Assembly (NCBI GenBank): GCA_020439945.1
Contig: JAGRPB010000001.1
Location: 1 to 64,000 of the forward strand
Length of the DNA: 64,000 nt
DNA from: Verrucomicrobiia bacterium
GTDB taxonomy: Bacteria; Verrucomicrobiota; Verrucomicrobiia; Verrucomicrobiales; DEV007
Reading direction: 5' to 3'
The notes beneath the pieces were generated by a model. That model was not told where the DNA came from. It made no database searches and saw only the letters and a program-made list of their open reading frames with translations. Position 1 is the stretch's first letter. The number at the start of each line of letters is the position of its first letter. Positions 8,112 through 18,157 of this stretch are shown here, one piece after another. The position numbers were made by a program, and so were the translations under genes.

Positions 8112-11100
8112 ATGAAAACGCACTCCAAACCGATCACCCCCGGAAAATCCACCCCCCAGCGCCGCCGCGGCGTCGCCCTCCTGACCGTGCTGACCATCGT
8201 GTCGCTTTGCACGATTCTCGTGCTGACCTTCTTCCAGTTGGCGCAAAACGAGATGGTCGCCTCGAACAGTTACAACAATGGTCTCGAGGCGCAGCAGGTG
8301 GCGGAGCAGGCGGTGAATCTGGTGATTCGACAGATCCGGATGGCCACTTCATCCAATGAAAAAGCGTGGGCATCTCAGCCTGGCGCGATTCGCGTTTGGG
8401 ACGACAACGGAAAATTCGAGGCTGGTTACAAACTCTACTCCGATGACAACATGGTTGTCACCTCTGAGGCTCAACTGGTTACTCAAGACTATCCGGAATT
8501 GGCATTATGGGACACGAAACCCTGGAAGTTTGTGGACCTCAATGAACCGGTGGTTCGGGGGGACAAGGTTTACTATCCGATTGTCGATCCCACCGCGAGA
8601 GTGATTCCGAAATGGAACAAGCCCCTCGGCGATGACACTGAGGGAATCGAGGGGTTCTTCACTTATCCCGAAGATGGGGACAAGAACTCCCTCAAATTCC
8701 TGGCAAATCAGGAGATGGACCTTGGTCCAATGCAGTCGGCTTTGCGGGAAGTTGATCCTTCTGACAGAATCCCGCGAAAGCCGCTTCCAATGCCGGCTAC
8801 CTGGATTTATCAGCTCAAGGACGGGACGATCGGGTTCCTGGATGACAACAAGCGTTTTCAAGCTTCGGATGGCGGAGGGGGTGGTGCGACGGTGCAAAAT
8901 CCGATCGTGGCACGAGTCGCATTTTGGGCGGATGACGAAACCACCAAACTGAATCCCAACGTTCATGCGGGCGGGGCGGCATGGGGAACGCCCCTTGCCG
9001 GGGGAGATATCGATCGGGGGCTTGGAAAATTCCAACCCGCGCAGCACGAGTGGCAGCGCTACCCGGGGCACCCGGCCACCACCCATCTGGCTCCAGTGAT
9101 CGCGCCCGGCATCCCTGACATCACCTACAGCGCGGATACCATGGAATTGATCTTCGATCTGGTTCCTCGAGTTGTTGGGGGTGGTTCGATGTCGGGGACG
9201 ATCAAGGTTAATACCAAGGATGAGGCAGAAATGAACGGGCTCATTCCCGACAAAGATCGCCTCTATGCCTCTCTGGATGAGTTCCTCCTAGAGCCGGGGC
9301 CCAAAGGCCAGAGGGATGATTTTCGGGAGCCCAACATATTTCCTGACCCCAACAATCGTTTTGGGCAATCCAAGAATGCCAAGGAAATGCAGGAACATCT
9401 GGAGCGTTCCAAATTTTTTCTCTCCGTGGTGAGCAAGGCTCCGGAAACGACGCTCTTCAACACGCCCAGAATCAGTATCTGGCCAACTCATTGGGATAAG
9501 GCGCCGAATCATTCCAGCCGGCATTTTACCGCGTTCGATAAGTTGATACGCTTCTGTGCTGAGATTGGTGGCGATCAGGCCAACCGCTATCAATATCATT
9601 TTCAGCGATTCAATGCCGACAGCACGACCGAGGATTACACCGAAATCAAACGTAACCGGGAGTTGATGGATTACCTGGATGATCTGACCAGCCGAAAGAT
9701 CCCGGGTTTTGGGAAATCCTTTGCTGGAAAGTATTCGACGGAAACGAGACGGCAGATCCTGACGGAAATCTTCGACTATATCCGGTCGACCGATCTTCAC
9801 GACGATACCCTTTACGTCGACAATTGGCGTGAAGCCTTTACTCCACCCAAAGAAAACTCGCGGGATGTGTATACCTACACCAATGGACGCATGAACGACA
9901 ATGGTGAACGGAGGACGCATAAAGGGCATGGGCAGGTGACGCCAATTGAAATCGATTTCAAGGGGACTCCCACCAAGGGGTTTGGCCGCTTCTATACCTT
10001 GTCGGAGATGGGCGTGGTCATCATCTGTTGCGCGGATGCGGGTCCCGGAGTGCAATTCTTCAAGGATCATCCGGACGAGCAAATCTTTCCCGATGATCCG
10101 CGTTCGAATTTGTCGAGAGACTACAATCAAAAGCTCGCCATGAGTGTCGATCCCGAGGAAATCCGTCGGTTACGGATGGATTTGATGCTCGGGGGCGAGG
10201 GAATGTTGGCCAATCCGGGCACCAGTGTTTATGGCGGCGGAAAAGTCGAGGAGGTTGGTTCCATACCCTCCGCCGGAAATACCCTTTGGAACGAAAAGGT
10301 GCTCACCAGCCGTGAGTACGCCCAGATCGAAAAATACCAGGCGAGCAATATTCCGCCACTTCCAACCATTTCGCTCGACTTGATCAGGCAGTCCTATCGG
10401 CATCCGGAAACCAGCAGTCTTCCGGCTTGGTTGATGGAATTCCGGGACGTTGCGGATTTCTGGGACATCGACAAGAAGCCGCTTCCGGATTTCACGGAGT
10501 TGGGATTGGCGTTCTTCGAGAACAAGCTTCTGGACAAGGACAATTGGAATTATCAGTTGGCGTGGCTTGATTCGGGGGCCAATCCATCAAACAAATTCAG
10601 TTTTGAAGGAAATCCTGCAATCACTCGATTGCAGCCGGGGCAGCAACTGCTGCAGGCGGCTTTGGTTTGGAACATGTTTTGCCCCAGCGTGGGGTGGGTC
10701 CCGATCAACGTGGACATGATGTTGGACATCGCGATCAACGGGATGCGTTTCCAATCCGCCACCGGACCTGTCGAAATTGGCGCCGGCGCGTCCCTGCCCT
10801 CTTCTTTGAGCAACCAGCCGAGTGAGTATGCCTGGGCTTCCAATCGGCAGGAAGTGACTTGGCACGATCGACACTACGGCGGAATGAAGCCTTTCACCTA
10901 CTTCATGACGGCGAACAGCGACGTGGGTGGTACTCGAGTGACTGGATCGAATATTTACTCGGAATACTGGCCCGAGCAGACGAATCCATCATATCCTCCC
11001 GGAATTGGAAGAAACGGTCGGGTCTCTCCCGTTGACTATAACTTTGAAAATGGTCCCCAAGGCAAGAAGCAGTTCAATCGCTATTTCTGGGTTACCAAGC

Positions 11101-12959
11101 CTTTTGTGGTGAACAACTACTCGGTGTTCATGAACAATGGAACGGTCGACATGAATATCTATGCCTCGGGTTGGAACAATCGAGAAGAGGCGCACTCAGA
11201 CGGAACCGGGGTGGAGTGGAGCGCCTCGCAGGCCAGTGATGCGCAGTTGGTTCAATCAATTTCCGTTCCTTTCGACAGCTTCACGGTGAAAGCGCCGAAA
11301 TTGGCGAGTGGTCGGGAAACTTACATTAATGACGTGGGGGGGCAGGCTCCTGGGAAAACCGGTCCGATGGAGTATTGGTCCCTCACCAACGATGGCGCCA
11401 ACCCCAACGTAGCCAGTCGCGGCCGGATGGCCAAAATCAATGGGCATCAAGGAGGTCTGTTCTCCGCCGGAGACGTCGTTAAATCGGTGGGAATCCGACA
11501 CGGGGACGTCAGGGTCGCGGCGACCCGTCGCGTCATTGCGGCAAATGACGGATTGTATGCCAAACATGTCCGTTATGATGATCCAAACGAGCGAATGGCT
11601 CATGAATTCATGACCACGCCTGGGTGGGGATTTCCCGGGACCGACCTCTCGGACCGCTCTCGTTGGCTGGTCGATTCTCCGGACTCGAGATTTAAATATC
11701 ATTCTCAACGGACGCCAACCTTGATGTATTCGGATAGATCCAGAGAGGTTCAACTGTTTGGTGATTTTGACAGCGGCATGGGAAATTCCATCGATGGTCC
11801 CTATATCAACAAGCCAGACGAGGGGAACATCCATTCCTTGTTCAATCGAACCGATCCCACTGCGACAGGCTTGGGGCTTTGGGATCTGATGCGGGATTAT
11901 GGCGATTTTCCCTACTTCGTCAGGGATTATATTCATGAGTCAGGCACTCCTGCCTATTTCTCGCCCAATCGAATCATTGCTTCGCCGGTTCAATTCGGTT
12001 CGCTATCGGTTGGGAGTAATGAGGCTTGGAATGGCATGTCCGGTCGTCCGTGGACAACGCTTTTGTTTCGTCCCGATGTCGATGGGGGTATTTACACCAG
12101 TCACCCGGGGTCGTCGCGAGGTGGCGCCGTAATTCCGGATCACCTCCTGCTCGATCTGTTCTGGATGCCGGTGGTAGAGCCGTATGCCATCAGTGAACCG
12201 CTGGCGACGAGTGGGAAGGTGAATTTAAACTACCAAATCCTTCCCTATCATCATATCAAGCGCAACACGGCCATCAGAGGAGTATTCAAATCAGAGTACA
12301 TGCTATGTGTTCCGAACAGTCACACGAATGATTACAAAGTTGGATTTGGAAGGGGGATTGGCTATCATTGGCGAGATCACCCCTTTGACGGATCTCTCCA
12401 GAAGAAAAGTCTGAGGACGCTGATCCTGGAGGATAAAACCCTCTATCAATTCGAAAAGCGATTTTCGCAGAACGAGATCTTCAAATCCGCTTCTGAGATC
12501 TGTGATATCTATCTGATTCCGCAAGAAGTTTCGAAACGGATGGGATTCGGAGGGAGTGGGGGTTCCATTCAAACCACCGATTTCACCAACAAGACTCCCG
12601 AACAAGCGGTGCAGGCGATGAAGGACGGAAGTTATTGGAGTGATCATGCGGCTGTCGGTGATAATGGCAAGGAGCGTCCCTATTCGGACATTTACGGGCG
12701 CATTACGACGAAATCGAACGCCTACAAAGTTCACTACCGCGCCCAGATTCTCCGGAAGGCGAAAGGGACTACTCCCGATGTGTGGAATTCGGATGTGGAT
12801 CAGGTGGTGGCGGAATATCGCGGATCTTCAGTGGTCGAAAGATATGTCGAGCCTGGGGATCCGGACATCCCGGATTATGCAACGCAGATTGGAACGCCGG
12901 AAACCATCGACCAGTTCTACAAGTTCAGGGTGGTGAATCCCACGCGCTTCTCTCCGTGA
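8112..12959 (+). CDS. Verru_Chthon cassette protein A: giant GspK/PilX-like pseudopilin
   Basis: I start at the ATG at 8112, preceded by GGAGA at 8106-8110, giving 1615 residues; an in-frame start at 8070 lacks a better site. A basic N-terminus (QRRRG) is followed by a single hydrophobic helix (ALLTVLTIVSLCTILVLTFF, about 21-40) and then an amphipathic helix, the layout of PilX/GspK-type pseudopilins. Position 5 after the Gly is not Glu, as in GspK-like minor pseudopilins. The rest is a very large extracytoplasmic region with no domain I recognise. With the next three genes it matches the set that TIGRFAMs calls Verru_Chthon cassette proteins A-D, known from Verrucomicrobium and Chthoniobacter. 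Function is unknown; it may cap a pseudopilus or present a large surface domain. Confidence 0.85.
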   Translation: MKTHSKPITPGKSTPQRRRGVALLTVLTIVSLCTILVLTFFQLAQNEMVASNSYNNGLEAQQVAEQAVNLVIRQIRMATSSNEKAWASQPGAIRVWDDNGKFEAGYKLYSDDNMVVTSEAQLVTQDYPELALWDTKPWKFVDLNEPVVRGDKVYYPIVDPTARVIPKWNKPLGDDTEGIEGFFTYPEDGDKNSLKFLANQEMDLGPMQSALREVDPSDRIPRKPLPMPATWIYQLKDGTIGFLDDNKRFQASDGGGGGATVQNPIVARVAFWADDETTKLNPNVHAGGAAWGTPLAGGDIDRGLGKFQPAQHEWQRYPGHPATTHLAPVIAPGIPDITYSADTMELIFDLVPRVVGGGSMSGTIKVNTKDEAEMNGLIPDKDRLYASLDEFLLEPGPKGQRDDFREPNIFPDPNNRFGQSKNAKEMQEHLERSKFFLSVVSKAPETTLFNTPRISIWPTHWDKAPNHSSRHFTAFDKLIRFCAEIGGDQANRYQYHFQRFNADSTTEDYTEIKRNRELMDYLDDLTSRKIPGFGKSFAGKYSTETRRQILTEIFDYIRSTDLHDDTLYVDNWREAFTPPKENSRDVYTYTNGRMNDNGERRTHKGHGQVTPIEIDFKGTPTKGFGRFYTLSEMGVVIICCADAGPGVQFFKDHPDEQIFPDDPRSNLSRDYNQKLAMSVDPEEIRRLRMDLMLGGEGMLANPGTSVYGGGKVEEVGSIPSAGNTLWNEKVLTSREYAQIEKYQASNIPPLPTISLDLIRQSYRHPETSSLPAWLMEFRDVADFWDIDKKPLPDFTELGLAFFENKLLDKDNWNYQLAWLDSGANPSNKFSFEGNPAITRLQPGQQLLQAALVWNMFCPSVGWVPINVDMMLDIAINGMRFQSATGPVEIGAGASLPSSLSNQPSEYAWASNRQEVTWHDRHYGGMKPFTYFMTANSDVGGTRVTGSNIYSEYWPEQTNPSYPPGIGRNGRVSPVDYNFENGPQGKKQFNRYFWVTKPFVVNNYSVFMNNGTVDMNIYASGWNNREEAHSDGTGVEWSASQASDAQLVQSISVPFDSFTVKAPKLASGRETYINDVGGQAPGKTGPMEYWSLTNDGANPNVASRGRMAKINGHQGGLFSAGDVVKSVGIRHGDVRVAATRRVIAANDGLYAKHVRYDDPNERMAHEFMTTPGWGFPGTDLSDRSRWLVDSPDSRFKYHSQRTPTLMYSDRSREVQLFGDFDSGMGNSIDGPYINKPDEGNIHSLFNRTDPTATGLGLWDLMRDYGDFPYFVRDYIHESGTPAYFSPNRIIASPVQFGSLSVGSNEAWNGMSGRPWTTLLFRPDVDGGIYTSHPGSSRGGAVIPDHLLLDLFWMPVVEPYAISEPLATSGKVNLNYQILPYHHIKRNTAIRGVFKSEYMLCVPNSHTNDYKVGFGRGIGYHWRDHPFDGSLQKKSLRTLILEDKTLYQFEKRFSQNEIFKSASEICDIYLIPQEVSKRMGFGGSGGSIQTTDFTNKTPEQAVQAMKDGSYWSDHAAVGDNGKERPYSDIYGRITTKSNAYKVHYRAQILRKAKGTTPDVWNSDVDQVVAEYRGSSVVERYVEPGDPDIPDYATQIGTPETIDQFYKFRVVNPTRFSP

Positions 12960-12980
12960 TTCATTGGAAGGCATCCGATT

Positions 12981-13598
12981 ATGAAATTATCCTCCACAAT
13001 AAGAAAAGGCGCCACCGGAAGGTCCCGGGGCTTCAGTTTGGTCGAGGTGACTCTGGCGATCGGAATCACCGCCATCGCTCTCGTCTCGCTGATGGGAATG
13101 CTCCCGAAGGGGATGAAAACGCTGCAAAAGGCGAATGATGAGGCCGTGATGGGGCGGATTCACCAGCAAATCCTTGGAGAGCTGCAACTGACACCGTGGG
13201 AATCGGGTGGTGGCGGGGGGATGTCGCCGTTGGATTCCATGGATAAGACGGTCAGGTTCTACGACGATCAGGGGATTGAATTGCCCGATTCAGAGAAGGG
13301 TTCATTCAGTCATGTCTACACGGCGCGCATTACGATCGCTCGGTCAGGTGTGACTCTCCCCAGTAGTGTCGGCGGGGGAAGGCACCATGGAGTGACCATG
13401 CCTGGAGAAACTTCCGCAGGCGTTGGGGGAGATCCTGACAAGATCATGCGGTTGGTGATTGTGGAGGTAACGGGAATTACGGATCCTCGTTTTTTGGGTG
13501 GACTCCCTTTGAGTTTTGACATGAGTGAATATACCCATGCTATTGCAACCTACCGCACGATGGTCGTGAAGATGGGGCAGCAGTTCGGAAACTCGTGA
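12981..13598 (+). CDS. Verru_Chthon cassette protein B: type IV prepilin-like
   Basis: The 205-residue protein carries a class III (prepilin) signal: basic leader, cleavage after Gly17 before FSLVEVTLAIGI, with Glu at +5 of the mature protein (Glu22). A good ribosome site GGAAGG lies at 12966-12971, 9 bases before the ATG, and the gene starts 21 bases after cassette A. After the helix the globular part has a Gly-rich loop (GGGGG, about 77-81) and an immunoglobulin-like beta-rich section. It resembles GspI-like minor pseudopilins in size and layout. Cleavage requires a PilD-type peptidase, which is not encoded in the window. Confidence 0.88.
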   Translation: MKLSSTIRKGATGRSRGFSLVEVTLAIGITAIALVSLMGMLPKGMKTLQKANDEAVMGRIHQQILGELQLTPWESGGGGGMSPLDSMDKTVRFYDDQGIELPDSEKGSFSHVYTARITIARSGVTLPSSVGGGRHHGVTMPGETSAGVGGDPDKIMRLVIVEVTGITDPRFLGGLPLSFDMSEYTHAIATYRTMVVKMGQQFGNS

Positions 13599-13628
13599 TT
13601 CGCTATCCCGAGCGATTTGAATCAGGCG

Positions 13629-14675
13629 ATGAAAAAGAAAAATTCAAAATCATCAGGAAAGCTTGGCTTTACCTTGATTGAGTTGTTGGTCGCAATGTCG
13701 ATATTGTCGATTTTGCTCTTACTGTTATCCCAACTGCTGGATCAGGTACAAAAGACTTGGAACTATTCGGAAGGGCGCGTGTCTCAATTTCGAGAAGCGC
13801 GGGTCGCCTTTGACATTATTACCAAGAATCTATCCCAAGCTTCGCTGAATACCTATTGGGATTATGAGTACAAGAACAATCTGGTTTACCGCTACAAGCG
13901 CCAGAGTGAATTGCATTTCCTGACTTTGGATGGCAAGCAATTGAGTCGAGATGCTGGTAGAAATGGGGGAGTGGATGGCGATGTCGTGGGGAAGGCAATA
14001 TTCTTTCAGGCACCTTTGGGTGTTTCCAATGTGTATAGAAATTTAAACAACCTGTTTGTGGCCAGAGGTTACTATCTCGTTTTCGGGAATGATGACCGTT
14101 TCAAGCCCAGCATCATTGATTCAGCGGAAACAAATCGCTTCCGCCTGATGGAATATCGGCCACCTGCTGAACTCAATCAGATTTACATCGATGGCGACGA
14201 AGAACGTAAGGATGGGCGAGCTCCGGTCTACGATAAGTGGTATTGCTATGAAATGCCGAAATACAGTACGCCGCTTGCGGAGAATATCGTGGGGTTTGTG
14301 GTTGCTCCGAGAGACACGTTGATCAACGCCGGTGAGGCGCGCCGCAATACTTTCAGTCGAATCGCCAGTGATTACAACTTCGACTCGAACGAGCATACCG
14401 ACCCGAGATTTGTGCAACAGGTTCCGCCGCTTGTTCAGGTCACGCTGGTAGCGATCGACGAGGCGAGCGCTATTCGCCTGGAGGCGGAGAATCAAGACGT
14501 GATGCCGGATCTAGGTATTGATCGGCTCTTCTTCAATACGGGTCAATTCGATGAAGATGTTGAGAAACTGGAAGAAGAACTTTCTGGCAGAAACATCAGT
14601 CACCGGGTCTTTAGCACGTTGGTGTCGATACGGAGCTCGAAATGGAGCACGTACGTTCCAAGTGCGCCAAACTAA
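13629..14675 (+). CDS. Verru_Chthon cassette protein C: GspJ-like pseudopilin
   Basis: I prefer the ATG at 13629 (348 residues); a TTG at 13617 would add four residues. The prepilin site is Gly13 before FTLIELLVAMSILS, with Glu18 at +5. The helix is followed by QVQKTWNY... and a beta-rich domain, the layout of GspJ-like minor pseudopilins. It follows protein B by 30 bases. The coding sequence is markedly AT-rich (25 G+C in the 60 bases 13861-13920). It is probably co-transcribed with A, B and D, and the set may form the tip complex of a dedicated pseudopilus. Confidence 0.87.
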   Translation: MKKKNSKSSGKLGFTLIELLVAMSILSILLLLLSQLLDQVQKTWNYSEGRVSQFREARVAFDIITKNLSQASLNTYWDYEYKNNLVYRYKRQSELHFLTLDGKQLSRDAGRNGGVDGDVVGKAIFFQAPLGVSNVYRNLNNLFVARGYYLVFGNDDRFKPSIIDSAETNRFRLMEYRPPAELNQIYIDGDEERKDGRAPVYDKWYCYEMPKYSTPLAENIVGFVVAPRDTLINAGEARRNTFSRIASDYNFDSNEHTDPRFVQQVPPLVQVTLVAIDEASAIRLEAENQDVMPDLGIDRLFFNTGQFDEDVEKLEEELSGRNISHRVFSTLVSIRSSKWSTYVPSAPN

Positions 14676-14707
14676 GCGACTGCAGGACTTACCGATTAGA
14701 TTTTGAT

Positions 14708-15373
14708 ATGAGGAAGATTTTCGTTTCATCCTTGAGAAAGGACGGCTTCTCGTTGGTAGAGATGCTGATCGTATTGACAGTGTTGGGAATTCTGATGGCT
14801 CTCGCTGCGCCAAACCTTTTCACCTTGATGCAGTCGAGCACTCTCTCATCGGAAGGGAACCTGGTGCGGAACAAGTTGGCCCAAGCCCAGCAGTTGGCGC
14901 TTTCGAAGAACAGCGACATTGAGGTCAGGTTCTTCGAAATGGCAGATCCCAGCGCGGCCGAGCAGGAAGATGAATTCCGAGGCTTTCAGTTTTTCCAGTT
15001 TAATGATCTGGGGAAACTTATGCCGATATCGAAGTTCTATCGAATCAAGCCACCTGTGGTCATCAGCAAAGAACAAAGCACGCTCCTGAATCCTGGGAGC
15101 AATAAGGACGCGGAAGGCAAAGAATACGGGTTCCTCTCGCCAAGCGAGGGAACGTATCCGGTGCCGGTGGGGGATGATCAGATCGACGCAACTTATATTT
15201 CCTTTCGTTTTCGACCAGATGGATCGACGGATCTGCCGGGACGGACCGGTTCGGACGACACGTGGTATCTGACTTTGTTGCAAGGTGATAATCCGAGGGG
15301 CGAATTGCCGGCCAATTATTACATCGTTCAGTTGGATGCCTTCAATGGCCGGGTCAGTGTTTTCCGGCCATGA
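14708..15373 (+). CDS. Verru_Chthon cassette protein D: GspH-like pseudopilin
   Basis: The ATG at 14708 places the prepilin motif at the expected distance: Gly13 before FSLVEMLIVLTVLGILMA, with Glu18 at +5. The frame extends upstream to 14642, but that part overlaps gene C and is not needed. After the helix the protein (221 residues) has a GspH-like N-terminal region (AAPNLFTLMQ ... ARNKLAQAQQLALSKN type, about 33-62) and ends in a beta-strand motif (NGRVSVFRP). The stop overlaps the next gene's start (ATGA at 15370), so translation is probably coupled. Confidence 0.87.
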   Translation: MRKIFVSSLRKDGFSLVEMLIVLTVLGILMALAAPNLFTLMQSSTLSSEGNLVRNKLAQAQQLALSKNSDIEVRFFEMADPSAAEQEDEFRGFQFFQFNDLGKLMPISKFYRIKPPVVISKEQSTLLNPGSNKDAEGKEYGFLSPSEGTYPVPVGDDQIDATYISFRFRPDGSTDLPGRTGSDDTWYLTLLQGDNPRGELPANYYIVQLDAFNGRVSVFRP

Positions 15374-16656
15374 ATGACAGGCATCCATCGAAGATCCATG
15401 CCGGGTTCCGTAGGGGTGTCGGCTGTCGGATTGGAATCGCGGCACCACCGTACTTGTTGTCACTGGTTTTGTTTTTTTGGTCGATCGGCTCGATCAACCT
15501 GTTTTCGGTTCCTTTGAAAGGTGCGAATGGCAAGGTGGTGGATTTTGTTGGGATTAAATCGGGAGGACCCGATGGACTGAAGGTCCAACTGGTGGAAGAT
15601 GGCGATTCGGTAGACGTTCCCTGGGAGAAGTTTGACCTCGAGTCCCTGAAAAACGACCAGCCTGTGATTTTTAAAGCCTACGAAGCTTCAAAAGGTGGGG
15701 AAACAACGGTTCTCGATCTGGGTTCTTTCAAGCCGAACACTCCGAGCCCGTCGGCAAAGAACATGTCGAAGGGCGATGGACAAGGGGGATTGTTTGATCC
15801 GACGGGATGGGGAGAGTTGAAAGTGGGCGGCGGCAGGTTTGTGATGCAACTGCCTGAGGGAGACCCGAAAGGAGTGCTCTTGGTTTCAGTGGGAATAGAT
15901 GGGCGTTCCAGTCGTTATGTCGGTCGAGGCAGATTTGGAAAATGGGCTGAGTATTTTGAAAAATTCCAGTTTGCGGTGATGTCGTATGACTTTCCGATGT
16001 CGCGGGATTCCGGGGGAGCGGGAAAAGGCTATTTTCAGCCTGGGAACGCAAGTTTTGAAGCAACGATCGATGCGATAGCAAAGTTTGGAAGCCATCCCAG
16101 ATTTGCGAATGCGGAAAAGATCCCGATCGCGCTGTATGGTTTCGACGTTCCCGGTGCTGCATTCGCTTTCAATTTTGCCCAAAAATATCACGAGCGGGTT
16201 TTGGCGGCAGTGGTTGCAAAGGGGGCCTTTTACTCCAATGCCCTTTCTGCTGAGTCAGTGAAGGTGCCGCTTCTTTTGATTTCCGGGGAAAACGATATTG
16301 AAGTGAAAAGCTGGAAACCTGAAAACACCATGGAGGTCGTGTATCCCCAAGGCAGGGAATTGGGAGCCAATTGGGTTTATGCCAGAGAGCCTCGCGCAGG
16401 CAGCGGTGAAACGATGCTTTCAATGGGGTTCGCCAAGTTGTTTTTGCAGCGCATGATTCTTGCCAGACTAACACCAACGGGTGAAGTGAAGTCATTGGAT
16501 TCCGAAGATTCCTGGATCGGAAATCTGGAGACTTTTGAAATCGGTCGTCGGGAAGGATCCGAAACTCTGTCGCAGGAGTTGACGTGGCTTCCTAACGGGG
16601 AAATTGCCAAGGCTTGGGCAAATTTTTGTCAGGGGATAGACTTGGAGGGAGAGTGA
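15370..16656 (+). CDS. Membrane-anchored SHD1-like / degenerate alpha/beta-hydrolase protein of the cassette
   Basis: This 428-residue protein starts at an ATGA overlap with cassette D, so it belongs to the cassette transcript. A hydrophobic segment at about 25-45 is a signal or anchor. Residues 48-100 resemble the SHD1-type beta-barrel found in PVC secreted proteins (LKGANGKVVDFVGI ... VPWEKFDLESL). Residues 145-385 look like an alpha/beta hydrolase related to PHB-depolymerase-like esterases, but the expected nucleophile elbow GxSxG is replaced by GFDVPGAA, so the catalytic Ser is absent. An Asp there could act as nucleophile, as in dehalogenases, but a non-catalytic binding role is equally possible. 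I know of no characterised homologue. Confidence 0.75.
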   Translation: MNDRHPSKIHAGFRRGVGCRIGIAAPPYLLSLVLFFWSIGSINLFSVPLKGANGKVVDFVGIKSGGPDGLKVQLVEDGDSVDVPWEKFDLESLKNDQPVIFKAYEASKGGETTVLDLGSFKPNTPSPSAKNMSKGDGQGGLFDPTGWGELKVGGGRFVMQLPEGDPKGVLLVSVGIDGRSSRYVGRGRFGKWAEYFEKFQFAVMSYDFPMSRDSGGAGKGYFQPGNASFEATIDAIAKFGSHPRFANAEKIPIALYGFDVPGAAFAFNFAQKYHERVLAAVVAKGAFYSNALSAESVKVPLLLISGENDIEVKSWKPENTMEVVYPQGRELGANWVYAREPRAGSGETMLSMGFAKLFLQRMILARLTPTGEVKSLDSEDSWIGNLETFEIGRREGSETLSQELTWLPNGEIAKAWANFCQGIDLEGE

Positions 16657-16723
16657 AGGGAATCTGCTTGTCGATGTTCTGACGATATCGGGTAGATCGA
16701 CTTTTCTCCGAATTTGTCGAAAT

Positions 16724-18157
16724 ATGTGTGCGGTAAAGTTGTCATTGGCATCAATTTGCTTCTTCACATCGTTGATATCGGGGCTGGCAATTGAAAAGCC
16801 CAACGTCGTTTTCCTCATGAGCGACGATCTCGGCTGGGGGGACGTCGGGTTCAATGGCAATGAAATCATCCAGACGCCACATTTGGATGAGATGGCGAGT
16901 GCGGGACTGAAATTTCAGCGATTCTACTCGGCAGCGCCAGTCTGTTCGCCGACGCGCGGCAGTGTGGTGACGGGGCGGCATCCGTTTCGATACGGAATCT
17001 ACTTTGCCAATGTCGGCCACATGAAGGGGGAGGAGTTTACGCTCTATGAGGCCTTGAAATCGAAGGGATATGCGACGGGCCATTTCGGGAAATGGCATCT
17101 CGGGACTTTGACCACTGAGATCGCTGACGCCAATCGGGGGAAACCGGGAAACACGAGAGACTACTCGGCTCCCTGGCATCATGGAGTGGACACTTGCCTG
17201 GTGACGGAATCGAAAGTGCCTACCTGGGATCCGATGCTGGTTCCGAAATCCATCAAAAGTCGGAAAAACGGTTGGTTGCCTCTCGAAAAAAAACAGGTGG
17301 CGGATTTCTACGGCACTCACTACTGGAAAGGTGAGAACCAACCGGTTCCCATCGATTCTTCCGATCTGCGGGGTGATGATTCCATGGTGATCATGAATGC
17401 CGCCCTGGATTTCATCACCGGTGCGGTGAAGTCCGGCCAGCCATTTTTTTCCGTCATCTGGTTTCATGCCCCTCATTTGCCGGTGGTGGCAGGTCCGGAA
17501 TACCGGGCGCGGTATCCGGGCACGACTGACTACGAGGCGAACTACTATGGCTGTATCACCGCGATGGACGAGCAGGTGGGAAGACTGCGCGAAGCATTGA
17601 GGGCACTGGGAGTTGCGGAGAACACAATGGTTTGGTTTTGCAGCGACAACGGTCCGGAAGGTCAAAAAGGGAAAGCGCCGGGAACGGCGGGTTCGTTCCG
17701 GGGACGTAAGCGGGATCTCTATGAAGGGGGAATCCGCGTGCCCGCATTGCTGGAATGGCCGGCACGCGTTAAAGGTGGCAGCGCTACCGATTTCCCTTGT
17801 GGTACGATCGACTACTTCCCGACCGTGATGGCGGCCGTGGGTTTTGAGGTGCCAGATCCCGATCGGCCGATGGATGGGATCAATCTGCTACCGGTGATCG
17901 ATGGCGATCTCGAAGAGCGATCGTTTCCGATGGGCTTCCAATCTGCCAAGCAGTTGGCCTGGGTCGGGCAGCGTTACAAGCTCTACTCAAAAAACGGGGG
18001 CAAGGATTTTGAACTCTATGATCTCCTCAACGACCCGGCGGAATCAAAGGATCTCGCGAAGGATCACCCCGATGTTGTCAAAAGAATGACCGGCGAACTG
18101 GAACGATGGAGGGCTTCCTGCCGGTCCAGCGATGCTGGCGAAGACTACAAAAACTGA
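16724..18157 (+). CDS. Type I (formylglycine) sulfatase, secreted
   Basis: The 477-residue protein has a signal peptide (about 1-22), the metal-binding DD pair at 34-35, and the sulfatase signature C74-S-P-T-R-G-S, whose Cys is converted to formylglycine by an FGE-type enzyme. FGKWHLG (central) and GPEGQKGKAPGTAGSFRGRK-type segments complete the family pattern. It most likely removes sulfate esters from a polysaccharide in the periplasm or outside the cell. It lies 67 bases downstream of the hydrolase-like gene on the same strand and shares the lower GC of the cassette. The FGE-domain protein at 22578-25022 could be its activator, but that protein also looks like a structural fusion. Confidence 0.92.
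   Translation: MCAVKLSLASICFFTSLISGLAIEKPNVVFLMSDDLGWGDVGFNGNEIIQTPHLDEMASAGLKFQRFYSAAPVCSPTRGSVVTGRHPFRYGIYFANVGHMKGEEFTLYEALKSKGYATGHFGKWHLGTLTTEIADANRGKPGNTRDYSAPWHHGVDTCLVTESKVPTWDPMLVPKSIKSRKNGWLPLEKKQVADFYGTHYWKGENQPVPIDSSDLRGDDSMVIMNAALDFITGAVKSGQPFFSVIWFHAPHLPVVAGPEYRARYPGTTDYEANYYGCITAMDEQVGRLREALRALGVAENTMVWFCSDNGPEGQKGKAPGTAGSFRGRKRDLYEGGIRVPALLEWPARVKGGSATDFPCGTIDYFPTVMAAVGFEVPDPDRPMDGINLLPVIDGDLEERSFPMGFQSAKQLAWVGQRYKLYSKNGGKDFELYDLLNDPAESKDLAKDHPDVVKRMTGELERWRASCRSSDAGEDYKN

Follow-up and report, generated by a model that had tools for sequence, protein, structure and literature searches.

In a bacterium of the order Verrucomicrobiales, four consecutive genes for prepilin-like proteins, the first of them giant, are followed by genes for a hydrolase-like protein and a sulfatase. 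The question raised by this locus is what such a set of proteins does, and which of its neighbours belong to it. An initial annotation made from the sequence had put forward, as a testable idea, a pseudopilus tip complex with its own enzyme cargo.

The locus and its genes

The stretch studied covers positions 8112-18157 (+ strand) of contig C110 (141 kb), the first 64,000 nucleotides of which were analysed as a whole and are called the window here. The six genes lie where the initial annotation had placed them (a slash marks the prepilin cleavage point):

8112..12959, + strand: gene A, giant GspK-like minor pseudopilin (1615 aa plus stop; prepilin site RRRG/VALLTVL, without Glu+5)
12981..13598, + strand: gene B, GspI-like pseudopilin (205 aa; prepilin site G/FSLVE)
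13617..14675, + strand: gene C, GspJ-like pseudopilin (up to 352 aa; prepilin site G/FTLIE)
14708..15373, + strand: gene D, GspH-like pseudopilin (221 aa from the likely start; prepilin site G/FSLVE)
15370..16656, + strand: gene E, predicted exported protein with an alpha/beta-hydrolase fold lacking the catalytic triad; lineage-specific neighbour
16724..18157, + strand: secreted S1-type sulfatase (PF00884); species-specific neighbour, probably outside the cassette

Genes A to D are contiguous and co-directional (8112-15373, + strand). For gene C, the ATG at 13629 is a likelier start than 13617. The longest open reading frame of gene D opens at 14642, within C, and since the prepilin leader MRKIFVSSLRKDG begins at 14708, this latter position is the likely start. 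The ATG of E overlaps the stop codon of D (ATGA, 4 bp), as had been noted before. Scans for promoters and terminators returned matches no better than chance level, and an Rfam search returned no matches.

All of 8112-18157 is lower in G+C (0.48-0.55; GC3 0.54-0.64) than most of the genes that flank it (about 0.59-0.66; GC3 mostly 0.70-0.80). Since the cassettes of two relatives from the same genus likewise lie 10-14 points under their own flanks, the lowered G+C is a trait of this genus's cassette and not peculiar to the window.

A pseudopilin set with a giant GspK-like member

Each of the proteins A-D exceeds the curated cut-off of an NCBIfam model for a Verru_Chthon cassette protein: A that of TIGR02600 (858 bits versus 332), B that of TIGR02598 (70 versus 51), C that of TIGR02599 (294 versus 257) and D that of TIGR02596 (about 125 versus 70). 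They are therefore a genuine Verru_Chthon cassette, far beyond chance. The window has all four genes contiguously and is thus a member of this group, from whose models it differs in the length of A (1615 aa versus 1296 model positions) and in the addition of E downstream. The models themselves carry no function.

In the type II secretion system (T2SS), GspK is the only pseudopilin without Glu5. For complete cassettes (89-91 examples per protein), we scored residue +5 of the mature pilin. It is glutamate in 88/91 of the B proteins, 88/90 of the C proteins and 86/89 of the D proteins, but in 0/91 of the A proteins, which mostly have Thr, Ile, Leu or Met there. In the window, all four proteins have a prepilin cleavage motif, and Glu5 is missing in A alone. 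This pattern is the signature of GspK (A) versus GspI, GspJ and GspH (B, C and D).

The best similarities outside the family are to GspK for A, to XpsI/GspI for B, to GspJ for C and to GspH for D. The N-terminal 75 residues of A match the GspK model NF037980 with 27.7 bits (cut-off 130). Among relatives of B, XpsI is matched by 11/20 and GspI by 6/20, and there is similarity to PilV, too. The GspJ model is matched by 17/22 members of the C family, with the window's C reaching 34.3 bits (cut-off 64.85), and the GspH model by 18/21 members of the D family. Since all matches of A-D to the Gsp models stay below the equivalog cut-offs for GspH/I/J/K, the four proteins are relatives of this kind rather than members of those equivalogs. 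Taken together, the NCBIfam scores, the Glu5 pattern and the Gsp similarities bear out the earlier reading of a complete GspH-I-J-K-like set with a giant exported A. In its four prepilin-like proteins, their one-to-one similarities and the lack of Glu5 only in the GspK-like one, the set is like the T2SS tip GspH-GspI-GspJ-GspK (XcpU-V-W-X). It differs from that tip, whose GspK has roughly 300 aa, in the 1615 aa of A, in scoring below the equivalog cut-offs, in having no T2SS core genes nearby, in the many copies per genome in some organisms and in its variable gene order.

Gene A contains very conserved blocks, and sequence searches found no relatives of A or E in the PDB. A model of a 1200-aa piece of a shorter A relative (L181; pLDDT 82.9, pTM 0.89) shows an N-terminal helix of 44 residues, short strands, a mixed insertion of very large size and, at the C-terminus, further strands. 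A may hence be read as a pilin whose core is interrupted by a giant insertion, where GspK has a smaller one. A Foldseek search with this model gave no significant match, the GspK structure 3ci0_K coming at rank 17 (E 1.3, TM (target) 0.27).

Distribution and secretion machinery

Of 75 genomes from the window's family, 60 have a match to A that exceeds the cut-off and 67 (16/18 genera) a match of any strength. In a phylum-wide sample, the only matches exceeding the cut-off come from the window's order and from one more family of the class. Elsewhere in this sample, many genomes match A solely at the N-terminus, over about 60 residues and mostly in long ORFs. These long ORFs of Verrucomicrobiota outside the cassette-bearing families (L127 and the phylum-wide matches), often of 1,000-1,400 aa, share only the A-type prepilin N-terminus and perhaps form a wider family of giant GspK-like proteins.

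In total, 218 cassettes were mapped, 155 of them non-redundant at 85% identity of A. The window's own genome has a second, divergent cassette on contig C425 in the order D-B-C-A (L007:6869-12686, - strand), in which A stays below the TIGR02600 cut-off, and which comes without E or a sulfatase. Other genomes carry far more cassettes, about 21 in G292 and about 12 in G140 (Verrucomicrobiaceae-type) and about 7 in the more distant G152, and these numbers exceed those of their GspF genes (6, 5 and 2, respectively).

Cassettes also vary in make-up and position. In one large genus (L089, L144 and about 15 relatives), the position of the cassette is fixed: as judged by eye from the sequences, tyrA-like/aroA genes lie on one side of it and an alternative-complex-III-like operon on the other. 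Loci of a different genus (L047:3804-4649, + strand, and eight relatives) encode, directly upstream of A, a small exported protein whose match to SHD1 (PF03983) is sub-threshold, and have B and C on the strand opposite to A. Four loci (L036, L040, L219, L220) have A genes tandemly duplicated inside one cassette, and at L058:3265-12135 (+ strand), two A-like proteins are encoded in tandem whose match to the A model starts at about position 64 and thus leaves out the prepilin segment.

The initial annotation had seen no ATPase, secretin or peptidase locally, and had held that machinery from elsewhere would be needed. A profile search of the window's contig indeed returned no match to GspE, a secretin or a prepilin peptidase. 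The check for PilD and GspE in the same genome that it had proposed came out positive: there is one ORF for a prepilin peptidase (Peptidase_A24) on another contig, and several full GspE/PilB ATPases are encoded on other contigs. On both C22 and C309, GspF (T2SSF) proteins are encoded beside ATPases; the pair on C309 has a secretin nearby, and further secretins are found elsewhere. Because the machinery is absent from the window's contig but present elsewhere in the genome, and because GspF genes are fewer than cassettes, we infer that the cassettes share machinery encoded at a distance.

What adjoins the cassettes in other families

Immediate co-directional neighbours were evaluated in two families, f3 and f9 (Verrucomicrobiaceae- and Spartobacteria-type), plus more distant named loci. 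In this set, a PATR/PEP-CTERM gene directly adjoins 33/79 cassettes in the same direction. Such genes make up 35/86 flanking genes, as compared to 13/370 controls further out (Fisher p = 2e-18), and the odds of encountering one are about 19 times as high among adjacent co-directional genes as a few genes further along the same stretches. The adjoining PATR/PEP-CTERM proteins reach more than 3,000 residues, and their family assignment was confirmed for examples. Their genes are found both upstream and downstream of cassettes with the order ABCD, and downstream of DBCA, BCDA and BCAD, and the association requires 19 changes on the tree of A versus 29 expected for shuffled labels. The association is thus partly inherited and partly recurrent.

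Further neighbours of cassettes include GH38, GH2, GH5, alginate-lyase/LamG, CBM9, BNR, Ig/PKD-repeat, S41-protease and sulfatase proteins. Beside cassettes of the f3/f9 type, export is predicted for 51% of downstream and 65% of upstream neighbours versus 23% of controls; as the call uses a home-made signal-peptide rule plus the PATR/PEP labels, the contrast alone counts. Counted across all cassettes, the enrichment in signal peptides came out too high owing to an operon that is fixed in a single genus, and the figures given here leave that locus out. At the remaining loci, which mostly come from the window's family, PATR/PEP-CTERM occurs in 0/77 flanking genes, and the excess of exported neighbours over controls is not significant (46% versus 30%, p=0.08). 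A PEP-CTERM scan of the window's own genome gave no match, but the control set was equally silent.

At one locus (L229:8958-15182, - strand), a PEP-CTERM repeat protein (VPEPGRVLLLL...RRRR) runs in frame, with no stop codon, into a complete gene A, which is either an in-frame joining of a presumed client and its tip or the result of a lost stop codon.

A proposed giant-capped tip on shared machinery

On balance, we consider it probable, if by a modest degree, that A-D form a minor-pseudopilin tip with a giant cap that works on shared machinery, and that the cap determines which clients are served. Starting from what can be taken directly from the sequence, namely cassette identity, the Glu5 pattern, the presence of machinery genes and the neighbour statistics, tip assembly, machinery sharing and client recognition may be pictured as follows. 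The genome's single prepilin peptidase would cut the GspH-like D, the GspJ-like C and the GspI-like B, and these would pack via their N-terminal helices and Glu5 and so initiate a short pseudopilus or pilus. Lacking Glu5, A would cap it in the manner of GspK and would carry an insertion of 1,000-1,500 exported residues. The tips would have ATPase, platform and secretin in common, all of them encoded elsewhere. Since genomes hold one to about 20 such tips, specificity may come from the large domain of A, such that each tip would engage one or a few exported clients whose genes often adjoin the cassette. Giant PATR/PEP-CTERM surface proteins or secreted glycan-active enzymes would be such clients in Verrucomicrobiaceae- and Spartobacteria-type genomes.

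The two halves of this account differ in their footing. That A-D are a minor-pseudopilin tip with a giant cap appears well supported by sequence, whereas cap-dependent client specificity is suggested by the gene neighbourhood in other families, which is no proof of binding, and by the general view that the tip, i.e., the minor pseudopilins, binds substrates (PMC6211770). Counting against the account are the missing PATR/PEP-CTERM linkage at the remaining loci, mostly of the window's own family, the non-significant export enrichment there, the fixed position of the cassette in one large genus, the Foldseek result for A and the sub-cut-off scores with the Gsp models.

The main alternative is that the complex is the minor-pilin tip of a type IV pilus serving adhesion, motility or DNA uptake, with A as an adhesin in a PilY1-like role and with neighbours that are no clients. 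Such a function would suit a giant exported A, the resemblance of D to ComGC, ComGD and PilA-type pilins and of B to PilV, and the several PilB-like ATPases of the genome. However, linkage to PATR/PEP-CTERM proteins and secreted enzymes would be unexpected for a pilus adhesin, and up to about 21 cassettes per genome are many for one pilus. We regard this explanation as unlikely, though deserving of serious consideration.

The association with PATR/PEP-CTERM genes might also be hitch-hiking, with cassettes and repeat proteins duplicating in expanded regions of surface genes and no functional coupling between them. In fact, PATR genes are numerous in the genomes that show the association, both families being highly expanded there, and cassettes are also found near housekeeping genes. 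It is improbable, though, that this accounts for the roughly 19-fold odds of direct co-directional adjacency relative to genes only a few positions away, for the recurrence of the association across different gene orders and for the PEP-CTERM protein that continues in frame into A. The linkage rather suggests one secretion machine with many exchangeable tips, whose neighbours are candidate clients of the giant-capped tip.

Gene E and the sulfatase

What, then, of the two genes that follow the window's cassette? The initial annotation had called E an SHD1-like, hydrolase-related protein. The SHD1 assignment was not confirmed, with no match to PF03983 in Pfam even at E<=10. Its relationship to hydrolases held with respect to the fold: Pfam matches to alpha/beta-hydrolases are weak (E 0.004-0.006), but a model of E (pLDDT 70) retrieves many hydrolases in Foldseek at E<1e-5 (prob 1.00), and E is accordingly predicted to have an alpha/beta-hydrolase fold. 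With respect to activity it failed. Among 21 homologues, the nucleophile position is D, G, E or Q, the acid is often lost and there is no conserved His, and since the catalytic triad is lacking, E is probably not a hydrolase.

E adjoins a cassette in 4/155 non-redundant cases, namely in the window, in its congeners G061 and G062, and in G069, which belongs to a different genus; in G063, a third relative from the genus, the sequence ends inside A and is therefore outside this count. Full-length or nearly full-length homologues of E exist in about 25/75 genomes of the family, and no A-D genes are near E in 19/19 other E loci examined. We thus treat E as a non-catalytic, lineage-specific companion of the cassette. 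In the picture of a giant-capped tip, its role would not go beyond that of a local client or accessory, probably one that binds and does not catalyse.

The sulfatase matches PF00884 with 172.8 bits and carries CSPTR (the C-x-P-x-R motif); like E, it has a predicted signal peptide. It directly follows E in the window only; at the corresponding locus of the sister species G062, where A-E and the genes further downstream are as in the window, no sulfatase lies in between. As the window's genome (5.9 Mb) has about 130 sulfatase matches, a sulfatase is a cheap neighbour to have, and this one is most likely there by chance. The large number itself suggests specialisation on sulfated glycans.

The initial annotation had stated that the idea of a linked system fails if E and the sulfatase are absent next to most cassettes, and absent they are; a conserved module of this kind was rejected. 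A single secretion module made up of A-D, E and the sulfatase and dedicated to enzyme cargo is hence very improbable, in spite of the D/E overlap, the lowered G+C and GC3 common to all six genes as opposed to most flanks, the signal peptides on E and the sulfatase, a run A-A-B-C-D-E followed by a GDSL hydrolase and a sulfatase in G069 and a sulfatase after a cassette in L250, given the rarity of E beside cassettes, the sulfatase-free locus of G062, the missing triad of E, sulfatases that are just 30-33% identical and a genome so rich in them. The notion of a tip complex with its own cargo therefore does not stand for E and the sulfatase as partners; as a general idea, it is supported in other families by the PATR/PEP-CTERM proteins and secreted enzymes.

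Discussion

The cassette had been taken to be a family without described function, and in agreement with this, we found it only as names in NCBIfam. A literature search yielded no paper that uses the Verru_Chthon name, though works outside the searched literature may exist. With the same proviso, the Glu5 pattern and the linkage to PATR/PEP-CTERM genes appear to be undescribed, as does the observation that tips outnumber platforms.

Are there precedents among known systems? Like the cassette, HpsB and HpsC of the hormogonium polysaccharide secretion (Hps) system of cyanobacteria belong to a pseudopilin set that is tied to export to the cell surface, and the Hps system includes a large protein, HpsA. 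The match of the window's C to the HpsC model is weak (21.7 bits versus a cut-off of 200, E 1e-4), and no glycosyltransferase cluster was noted at the window's locus. Closer in phylogeny is Verruconatronum alginivorum, for which the available part of a recent report describes 67 PulG-like pseudopilins in one genome together with a T2SS, over-expression of a pseudopilin on alginate and a suggested export of alginases by the T2SS (PMC13274419, 2026). This resembles our case in the many pseudopilin copies of one Verrucomicrobiota genome, but those pseudopilins are PulG-like rather than A-D, and that part of the report makes no link between cassettes and clients (PMC13274419). As far as it goes, it fits the account of exchangeable tips. 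With regard to the presumed clients, V. spinosum, where PEP-CTERM proteins were first noticed, has 65 of them (PMC1569441), and the words prepilin and pseudopilin are absent from that founding paper.

A bolder version of the giant-capped tip can be put forward tentatively, as a possibility that we would not yet bet on. In Verrucomicrobiota, secretion would work by plug-in, with a few shared T2SS/T4P-like machines and many paralogous giant-capped tips, each dedicated to an adjacent exported client, including PATR/PEP-CTERM surface proteins of several thousand residues, and the window's tip would be a member with an inactive hydrolase-fold neighbour.

It has long been asked by what means type II secretion selects its substrates. 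If Verrucomicrobium-like bacteria do hold a dozen or more tips with neighbours of their own, then each pair would be a natural experiment on the recognition between tip and substrate. If true, this would also offer a possible export route for many PEP-CTERM proteins, and would give a function to named families for which none is described in the literature searched.
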